Shown here: positions 23,273-25,847 of the stretch, one piece after another
Position numbering within the stretch: position 1 is the stretch's first letter
Layout: each line of letters begins with the position of its first letter
Source: Methanocaldococcus sp.
Lineage (GTDB): Archaea; AGJL01; Methanococci; Methanococcales; Methanocaldococcaceae
Reading direction: 5' to 3'
Length of the DNA: 57,740 nt
Assembly (NCBI RefSeq): GCF_024490875.1
Contig: NZ_JACCLX010000021.1
Span: 1-57,740 of the forward strand
Position numbers and translations under genes: made by a program
The notes under the pieces: generated by a model
Database searches by the model: none
What the model was told of the DNA's origin: nothing
Seen by the model: only the letters and a program-made list of their open reading frames with translations

Positions 23273-24925
23273 ATGAGCACAGCAGTAAAGGTAAAAAATT
23301 TAACAAAAAAATATGGGGATTTTAAAGCATTAGATAATGTCTCTTTTGAAGCAAAAAAGGGAGAGATTTTAGGAATTGTTGGAAAAAGTGGAGCAGGAAA
23401 AACTACTCTAATTAGAATTTTAAGAGGTTCTTTAGATTACGATGAAGGGGAAGTAGAAATATTGGGTAGAAAAGATAACTTTAAAGAGGTAACTGCTATT
23501 CATTTACAGAGAAATTTTGCACTATGGGCAGAGCCAGTAATTAATAACATTATAAGAAAACTTTACGCCATAAGAAACAAATCTGATGAATTATTGCCAA
23601 TGGAAGAGGAATGGGAAGAGTATGAAAAAGAAGCCTTAGAGATATTAAAATTAGTTGGTTTAGAACATAAAAAGGATGCTTTTGCAAACATACTAAGTGG
23701 AGGAGAAAAACAAAGGCTAATATTAGGTAGGCAGATAGCTAAAATTTATGAAAAGGGAGAGGGAGTTTTATTATTGGATGAACCAGCAACAATGGCTTGT
23801 CCAGCATCTAAGCAGAAACTATTAGATGTAATTAAAAATATTAGAGATAAGTTAAATATAACTGTAATTATAACCTCCCATTTGCCAGAAGTGCATAGAT
23901 ATCTTTGTGATAGATTGATATTATTGGAAGATGGAAAAGTAAAAAAAATTGGAGATGTTGAAACAGTCTTAAATGAGTTTTTGAAAGATATGAAGCCACC
24001 TTATATAAGAACTCCTAAAATAAAAGACAATGATATAATAAAAGTTGAAAATGTCTCTAAGAGATACTATGTTATTCATGGAGGAGAAACACTAAACTTA
24101 AAAAATATCTCCTTCAATGTTAAAGAGGGGGAAATAGTGTCTATTATTGGGCCTAGTGGTGTTGGAAAAACTGTAATTATGAGATTGATGGCTGGCTTAG
24201 AATTACCTAATGAAGGAAGAATTATTGTTGATGGAGTTGATATAACCAAATATGGATGGGAAAGAATAGAACTTAGAAAGAGAATAGGAATTATGCATCA
24301 AGAGTTTTCTCTACCATATTATCAAACAGTTGAAAATTTATTAAAATATAGATTGGGATTAAAAGGAGAAAAGGCAATTGCTCATGCAAAAGTAAAGGCA
24401 GATGAACTTGGCATTTCTCCAAAGATTGTAGATGCAATTTATCAATTAATCGATGTCCCAGAGGCAGAGAGAATTTCAAAACTTCAAAAGATGGGTTTAA
24501 CAGAAGATATAATTTATAAACTATTCCCACCAATTGTTGAAGATTTTAAGCCAGATGAAATTTTAGAGGCGTTAGATTTAGGTAAGGACATTTTAAAGAA
24601 AAAAGTTTCTGAACTTAGCGGAGGGCAAAAGGTTAGAGTGGCTATGGCTTTGCAGTTAATAACTAAGCCAAAGATTTTATTCTTAGATGAGCCTTTTGGA
24701 GATTTAGATCCAATAACATTAAGAGATGTTGCAAACTATTTAAAGAAAATAAATGAGAAATTTGGCACAACAATAGTTTTAGTGTCTCACTGTGTAGATT
24801 TTATTAAAGAGATTAGTGATAGAGCAATACTCTTAGATAATAATAAATTAGTTATGGAAGGAAAACCTGAAAAGGTTTGTGAAGAATTTATAAAAAGAAG
24901 TAATGCAAGGTTTATACGACCATAA
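23273..24925 (+). CDS. atwA: Methyl-coenzyme M reductase activation component A2 (double ABC ATPase)
   Basis: Two ABC ATPase domains lie in tandem. The first has Walker A GKSGAGKT (about 37-44) and signature LSGGEKQR; the second has GPSGVGKT and LSGGQKVR with Walker B ILFLDEP. No membrane segment is present. The insert after the second Walker A region and the DEPATMACPASKQ block match component A2, which uses ATP in the reductive activation of methyl-CoM reductase. GGTGAT (23263-23268) picks the ATG at 23273. It is divergent from the mobA-smc run and stands alone before a long non-coding stretch. Confidence 0.92.
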   Translation: MSTAVKVKNLTKKYGDFKALDNVSFEAKKGEILGIVGKSGAGKTTLIRILRGSLDYDEGEVEILGRKDNFKEVTAIHLQRNFALWAEPVINNIIRKLYAIRNKSDELLPMEEEWEEYEKEALEILKLVGLEHKKDAFANILSGGEKQRLILGRQIAKIYEKGEGVLLLDEPATMACPASKQKLLDVIKNIRDKLNITVIITSHLPEVHRYLCDRLILLEDGKVKKIGDVETVLNEFLKDMKPPYIRTPKIKDNDIIKVENVSKRYYVIHGGETLNLKNISFNVKEGEIVSIIGPSGVGKTVIMRLMAGLELPNEGRIIVDGVDITKYGWERIELRKRIGIMHQEFSLPYYQTVENLLKYRLGLKGEKAIAHAKVKADELGISPKIVDAIYQLIDVPEAERISKLQKMGLTEDIIYKLFPPIVEDFKPDEILEALDLGKDILKKKVSELSGGQKVRVAMALQLITKPKILFLDEPFGDLDPITLRDVANYLKKINEKFGTTIVLVSHCVDFIKEISDRAILLDNNKLVMEGKPEKVCEEFIKRSNARFIRP

Positions 24926-24942
24926 GAGGCTCTACCTCTTAT
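24922..24942 (+). terminator. Hairpin at the end of atwA
   Basis: ataagagg (24922-24929) pairs perfectly with cctcttat (24935-24942) around a five-base loop. It overlaps the stop of atwA and is followed by T-rich DNA, so it may end or stabilise the transcript. Confidence 0.5.
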
Positions 24943-25245
24943 TGATATACCTCCCATAAGTTAGTTTTTATTTTTATTTATTATCCCTTCTCTCTCGCTA
25001 AAAATTGTTATTTTTTAATTTAGAGGGGTTTAATTTGAAATTTTTTAATTTTAAAAATTTTTATCCAATTTCAGAGGGTCTTTTATTTTGATTAATTTTA
25101 ATATTTGACTTTACTAAATTATTGAGATTTTTAGGAGATTTTATTTAACTGTTTTTATCTCTAATTTTCCCCGATAATTAGGTTAATAACAAAAATTTTA
25201 AGGATTTTAAAGACAATAAACCAAAATAGAAAAGTATAAATAAAA
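24943..25245. other. Non-coding, very AT-rich stretch before the CRISPR array
   Basis: No open frame with a start and ribosome binding site is seen on either strand. The sequence is rich in T runs and has repeated agaggg/gagggt words. It may be the long, conserved leader that precedes CRISPR arrays in Methanocaldococcus, but this needs comparison with other arrays of the genome. Confidence 0.5.
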
Positions 25246-25288
25246 GTTCGGAGGTATATAAATAACAAGGGTAATTGACCCTCCGAAC
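25246..25288. promoter_or_regulatory. Inverted repeat upstream of the CRISPR promoter
   Basis: gttcggagg (25246-25254) is matched by cctccgaac (25280-25288) across 25 bases. A smaller inverted repeat, agggt/accct (25268-25272 and 25278-25282), overlaps the right arm, so two alternative hairpins are possible. It ends ten bases before a TATA box. It could be a protein-binding site in the leader. Confidence 0.55.
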
Positions 25289-25297
25289 TATAACCCC

Positions 25298-25305
25298 TAT
25301 ATAAA
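25298..25305 (+). promoter_or_regulatory. Probable TATA box of the CRISPR array
   Basis: tatataaa lies about 50 bases before the first repeat. A start some 25 bases downstream would give a transcript beginning shortly before the first repeat. Confidence 0.55.
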
Positions 25306-25611
25306 GAAGTATAATAAAGTAATTTTAGAAAATTATCTCTTCAAATTGTGTCCTGTTTAAAATCAAGCCCCAAAGGGGATGGAAATACAGAAATTGAAAT
25401 TAAAAAAGTTAATAACTCACTAAAAAAGTTTAAAATCAAGCCCCAAAGGGGATGGAAATAGTTTATTTTTTAATTCAACTATGGCAACATCTTTAATGTT
25501 TAAAATCAAGCCCCAAAGGGGATGGAAATAAATCTTCTTTTGTGTTAATGGATTGATCTCTGACATCCTTACCAGTTTAAAATCAGGCCCCAAAGGGAAA
25601 GGCAAAAAGAG

Positions 25612-25637
25612 GCATTGCTTCTTTTAAGAAGCAATGC
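25612..25637 (+). other. Perfect 12-bp hairpin inside the distal CRISPR region
   Basis: gcattgcttctt (25612-25623) and aagaagcaatgc (25626-25637) pair without mismatch around a two-base tt gap. It lies in the 65-base stretch between the fourth and fifth (degenerate) repeats, where a spacer would normally be. Confidence 0.85.
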
Positions 25638-25645
25638 ATCCCGGG

Positions 25646-25676
25646 TATCCCAATAGGGCGGAGCCCTATGGGTATA
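25646..25676 (+). other. Second strong hairpin in the distal CRISPR region
   Basis: tatccc and atagggc (25646-25659, with one bulged A at 25652) pair with gccctat and gggtata (25663-25676) around a gga loop, giving about 13 pairs. It follows the first hairpin after eight bases and runs into the fifth repeat remnant. Confidence 0.8.
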
Positions 25677-25847
25677 TAATCAAGCCCCAAAGGAGATAAA
25701 AATATTTAAATTTTTTAATAGCATAAAATATCCATATATAGAAATATATAAATCATTAGGATATATAATATAACATTAATTTTTATATAGTTCAATAAAA
25801 TAAGTAATTCCATCCAGTTTTTTAAAACAAAATTATTGAGGGGAATT

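Follow-up and report, generated by a model that had tools for sequence, protein, structure and literature searches.

The window, by which we mean the whole stretch of 57,740 nucleotides of Methanocaldococcus sp. DNA that was analysed, carries a short CRISPR array (25355-25703) between a leader and a trailer, upstream of a gene that appears from its sequence to encode a class I lysyl-tRNA synthetase. The array has five repeats with a start-to-start spacing of 73, 70, 77 and 97; both repeat 4 and repeat 5 are degenerate, and the former is without its 3' handle. The features of the locus are as follows.

24920..24955, minus strand: hairpin-B module in inverted and degenerate form, next to the left side of the leader and adjoining the upstream gene at its stop codon (reverse complement GGGAGGTATATCAATAAGAGGTAGAGCCTCTTATGG)
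24991..25354, plus strand: CRISPR leader with left boundary CTCTCGCTAAAAATT, present in more than 20 copies in its own genome at 81-98% identity
25355..25386, plus strand: CRISPR repeat 1
25428..25459, plus strand: CRISPR repeat 2
25498..25529, plus strand: CRISPR repeat 3
25575..25598, plus strand: truncated repeat 4, the putative upstream copy of a target duplication (GTTTAAAATCAGGCCCCAAAGGGA), without the ATGGAAAT handle; absent from six empty paralogous array ends and truncated in the same way in the relatives G009 and G013
25599..25607, plus strand: filler AAGGCAAAA leading from the truncated repeat to the element, assigned by sequence
25608..25671, plus strand: palindromic element, AGAGGCA(hairpin A)TGCATC CCGGGTATC CCAATAGGG(hairpin B)CCCTATGG, scoring 89.4 bits with the covariance model
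25612..25637, plus strand: hairpin A, with perfect 12-nt arms; on the minus strand CTCTTTTT follows
25650..25671, plus strand: hairpin B, with a bulged A; its stem extends outward to about 25645-25677
25672..25703, plus strand: repeat 5 (GTATATAATCAAGCCCCAAAGGAGATAAAAAT), the putative downstream copy of the target duplication and original degenerate terminal repeat; empty paralogs have a similar terminal repeat and then the same trailer
25704..25745, plus strand: start of the array trailer, truncated here and conserved between arrays over about 250-300 bp elsewhere in the genome
25849..26600, plus strand: start of the gene that follows the array, a class I lysyl-tRNA synthetase by sequence, used as the anchor for array orthology across four species

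The initial annotation had drawn attention to two tandem hairpins within 65 nt between repeats 4 and 5 (25607-25671), the first with perfect 12-nt arms and the second with a bulged A and running into the fifth repeat, and this description was borne out. Hairpin A folds into 11 pairs and a 4-nt loop, while hairpin B (CCAATAGGGCGGAGCCCTATGG) has a stem that reaches outward into GTATA, the start of repeat 5. The folding energy of the 65-nt piece was -29.7 kcal/mol, compared with -17.1 +/- 3.1 for its shuffles (z = -4.1, 0/200), and a surrounding piece of 121 nt gave z = -3.2. An Rfam search of the window returned 5S rRNA and sR3 only, with no family match for the hairpins. Inverted copies or remnants like the one at 24920-24955 were also seen left of the leader at loci L014, L116, L191, L194 and L020, in several species, and some of them share a short filler up to the leader boundary. 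At L014, L116 and L191 the inverted element in the position matching that of the window is better preserved.

Searches of other Methanocaldococcus genomes and of their array ends, as proposed in the initial annotation, revealed abundant copies, so that an insert without copies elsewhere is no longer in question. Matches away from arrays in these genomes span positions 8-72 of the query, which is exactly the insert. According to a covariance model built from 29 copies (counts at E <= 1e-4), the element represents a family of about 65 nt found in 12 of the 14 Methanocaldococcus genomes, with at least 20 copies in most of them, largely away from arrays. Eleven genomes carry 7-46 copies, G002 carries one, and G010 and G003 carry none. 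The 46 copies belong to G008, which we take to be M. jannaschii as it bears the CRISPR repeat of that species. Searches of viral, phage and plasmid collections yielded no copies. The terminal sequences of the element, AGAGGC and CTATGG, do not form an inverted repeat.

A family of palindromic repetitive DNA elements in M. jannaschii, named MJRE1-3, was reportedly described by Suyama, Lathe and Bork in 2005 (FEBS Lett 579:5281). Like the present element, that family is dispersed, palindromic, of similar size and largely intergenic, and the 46 palindromic copies scattered over the M. jannaschii genome agree with such a description; it is thus likely to be a published relative, as far as descriptions can be set side by side. 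The 2005 account is said to mention neither target duplications of 25-62 bp nor a position at CRISPR array ends. By description, the element may also be likened to the palindromic elements of Rickettsia and Wolbachia and to bacterial REP sequences, which are short palindromic mobile repeats, some of them tolerated in or beside genes.

The flanks of the dispersed copies were informative regarding the mode of insertion. Among 87 fetched copies away from arrays, 38 had a significant direct repeat between their flanks (score >= 16), as compared with 0.3% for shuffled and 1.6% for swapped flanks. In 33 of these 38 the downstream duplicate begins 0-6 nt after CCCTATGG, and 0-25 nt of filler separate the upstream duplicate from the element. 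The length of the duplication is variable (16-62 nt, mostly 25-62), the weaker duplications appearing shorter through decay; among the clear examples are L026 (35/35 identical), L101 (38/38), L140 (51 bp) and L068 (about 50). Common transposons make short target duplications of fixed length, and 25-62 bp is far longer than usual. The element resembles a MITE in having copies at unrelated sites with target-site duplication, while neither a short fixed duplication nor terminal inverted repeats were found. Occurring genus-wide, duplications of 25-62 bp point to an unusual insertion mechanism. Many of the duplicated stretches consist of the last codons of a gene together with its stop codon, so that the end of the gene is restored, which explains why insertions near gene ends are tolerated. 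This differs from the Rickettsia and Wolbachia elements, in that here the duplicated target restores the gene end and the element is not read through. At L073 (G008:97738-97801) a copy follows a tRNA-like 3' end, the last 30 nt of which are imperfectly duplicated beyond the element.

Empty sites complete the picture. In a gene identified by sequence as porD, G012 has a single copy of a 40-nt stretch and no element, an empty orthologous site, whereas eight congeners have the element with the 40-nt stretch on both sides. As far as sequence comparison goes, this contrast is decisive for insertion with target duplication. The suggestion that the hairpins could be a small inserted element thus finds good support in the dispersed family, the target duplications and the empty sites. 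At the same gene in G004 (L234) two different hairpin elements were inserted successively at the same place, and other species (L231, L233, L235) retain just one of the two.

The element is also frequent at array ends. The window's own genome is an assembly of 44 contigs with several breaks within arrays, and occupancy counts thus refer to readable ends only. A search of this genome with 25600-25700 matched ten further array ends, nine of them at 98-90% identity and the tenth with a copy bearing an extra hairpin-B module; contig ends C6 and C23 are one array and were counted once. With the window's array included, 11 of the 17 scored ends are occupied, and all of these follow a common order: last full spacer, truncated repeat, filler of about 8-16 nt, element, terminal repeat and conserved trailer. 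The truncated repeat terminates in GGGA or GGGGA, lacking the ATGGAAAT handle, and the terminal repeat begins exactly after CCCTATGG. The six empty ends (C26, C9, C41, C12, C37 and C19) have a single terminal repeat, whose altered AAAA end is in most cases the same, and the same trailer directly after it. It follows that occupied ends hold one additional truncated repeat plus the element. Such capped and empty ends are natural pairs for asking whether the array end has a function.

Regarding other species, for which the counts cover the inspected arrays only, six arrays of G009 bear the element, one of these in two copies, and a seventh has only hairpin A; in G013 the element is present at eight arrays, and in G005 two array ends show related modules. 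In total, the element caps about 25 arrays in three species. In all three the upstream duplicated portion of the repeat comprises 24-25 of its 32 nt, the last 7-8 being missing. The element thus sits at the leader-distal ends of many arrays in at least three related species, probably four. By coordinates, and among the matches listed, none lay at the ends of the listed M. jannaschii arrays, and the fetched loci with cassette copies from G008, G006, G012, G001, G011 and G007 had no array-end element either.

An array lies at the same place, upstream of the class I lysyl-tRNA synthetase gene, in G009 and G013, both with the element, and in G005, with related modules; the other ten genomes have no array upstream of this gene. 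Element copies at the orthologous array show 81-90% identity from one species to another, compared with an average of 93-96% to the paralogs of the same genome, and the copies of the window's own genome all fall in one clade with support 1.0. Since copies are nearer to the paralogs of their own genome than to their orthologs, arrays within a genome must have exchanged or converted their ends. Traces of recombination were also observed: at L128 of G009 (1389-1753) a spacer and the element are tandemly duplicated at the array end, the same spacer occurring twice, and at L121 of G013 the array runs on for 12 repeat-spacer units beyond the element copy. Such concerted evolution of array ends implies that separate CRISPR loci within a genome exchange sequence.

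Taken together, the reading that we favour, with a probability of about 0.85, is that a dispersed, MITE-like palindromic element entered a CRISPR array at the 5' edge of its terminal repeat, about 25 nt of which were duplicated as the target duplication. What carries it is the element family, the long target duplications at other sites, the empty paralogous array ends and the occupied array at the same locus in relatives. Since arrays contain flanking repeats anyway, we infer the target duplication within arrays from the geometry, together with the additional repeat and the dispersed copies. The insertion would be old, and its copies would later have spread to other arrays and been homogenised between them, through array duplication, recombination or gene conversion via the shared repeats, leaders and trailers. 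The leader-distal end would be the part of an array that changes least, and an insertion would be retained there, while internal ones would be lost with spacer turnover. Lack of turnover at the leader-distal end is thus the probable reason why the element persists there, and it probably does little. A point against its being a mere passenger is the occupancy of 11/17, which leaves room for a selected role.

Transposable elements are very rare in archaeal CRISPR loci, one ISH4 and one 132-bp MITE having been recorded in euryarchaeal loci (PMC4390879). The present element is likewise a non-autonomous element inside a CRISPR locus, but the reported cases are rare, whereas here one type of element occurs on about 25 arrays in three species. 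In addition, neither the terminal inverted repeats of a known transposon nor a short target duplication was seen in our element.

Concerning function, a role at the array end is possible, although nothing that was tested requires one. The element may have been co-opted as a functional array end, acting either as an insulator or terminator, for example by keeping antisense transcripts out of the leader-distal end, or as a barrier to recombination or further transcription. The high occupancy in three species would fit such a role, as would hairpin A, whose pairing is strongly maintained by compensatory change throughout the family: 97.5% of cells are paired, as compared with 27-45% when the partners are slid, and 46 cells are changed on both sides, as compared with 16 +/- 3 in shuffles, while the sequence of hairpin B is nearly invariant among the sampled copies. 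However, compensatory change characterises the family as a whole and not specifically its array copies, and it is no proof of RNA function, because a palindromic DNA element would be expected to give an identical pattern. On the minus strand of the window's own genome, CTCTTTTT comes after hairpin A, giving a terminator-like site that might stop antisense transcription into the array, but this T-run derives from AAAAAGAGG, which was not seen in the array copies of G009 and G013. The earlier proposal of a terminator for the array found no support on the sense strand, where no T-run follows either hairpin, and the 12 further units beyond the copy in G013 also speak against it. These units, and the six own-genome array ends that lack the element, likewise weigh against co-option, which we consider unlikely. 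As for processing of the array transcript, the 3' part of a Cas6-processed repeat normally becomes the 5' handle of the crRNA. With this part missing from the upstream truncated repeat, processing of the element into a normal crRNA is not to be expected.

With respect to how the inserted element moved, a Cas1-type integrase, either the integrase of CRISPR adaptation or one of its relatives, acting off target, would explain both the repeat-like length of the duplications and a home at CRISPR array ends. To our knowledge, spacer acquisition is the only integration that yields a duplication of this size. If such movement were true, the element would connect transposition of the casposon type with spacer acquisition. 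All 11 genomes with at least 7 copies have a Cas1 match; among those with 0-1 copies, G002 and G003 have none and G010 has two. This relation between Cas1 presence and element number is a weak and confounded hint, the sample being small, related and partly incomplete. The variable duplication lengths and the 25/32-nt duplication at arrays speak against ordinary Cas1-Cas2 action, and we regard movement by a Cas1-type integrase as very unlikely. The element was also found directly upstream of cas1 at L038 (G008:343792-343855, M. jannaschii), where the flank is duplicated, and at L044 (G007:C39:9009-9073).

It could also be proposed that leader, array and trailer form a composite mobile cassette bounded by inverted copies of the element, given that several arrays have inverted copies directly to the left of the leader and that some cassettes have outward-facing copies at both ends. 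Nevertheless, nine whole cassettes were examined for a flanking target duplication and none was found, local matches reaching scores of 11-16.5 at best, which is the level expected for AT-rich DNA. A left copy is missing from many leaders, and the conserved trailer, about 250 bp long, is situated outside the right-hand copy. A composite unit is thus highly improbable.

Capture of the hairpin element as a spacer through Cas1-Cas2 adaptation has in its favour the location between two repeats and a repeat-sized duplication that resembles spacer acquisition in form. A precedent is SiL-E1 of Sulfolobus islandicus LAL14/1, a plasmid-derived pseudo-spacer of about 2 kb which, like our element, is foreign-looking DNA lying exactly between CRISPR repeats, in that case two complete ones of a single array (PMC3718332). 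Against capture, the element measures 64-80 nt while the other spacers here have 36-48; neither a length within the range of the array (38-45 nt, the piece in the window having 64-65) nor complete flanking repeats were found, the upstream duplicate having just 24-25 of 32 repeat nt in all three species. The position is leader-distal and not leader-proximal, and dozens of non-CRISPR sites show the same geometry, which makes capture scarcely credible. Finally, the possibility of a decayed repeat pair, also raised in the initial annotation, was rejected, since the element occurs genus-wide and is unrelated in sequence to the CRISPR repeat.

A further observation concerns the trailer. Its 250 bp have about 40 matches in the window's own genome (G000), often in tandem groups of two or three at intervals of about 310 bp, for example at C26:55668-56229, C15:18598-19491 and C27:460-1007.
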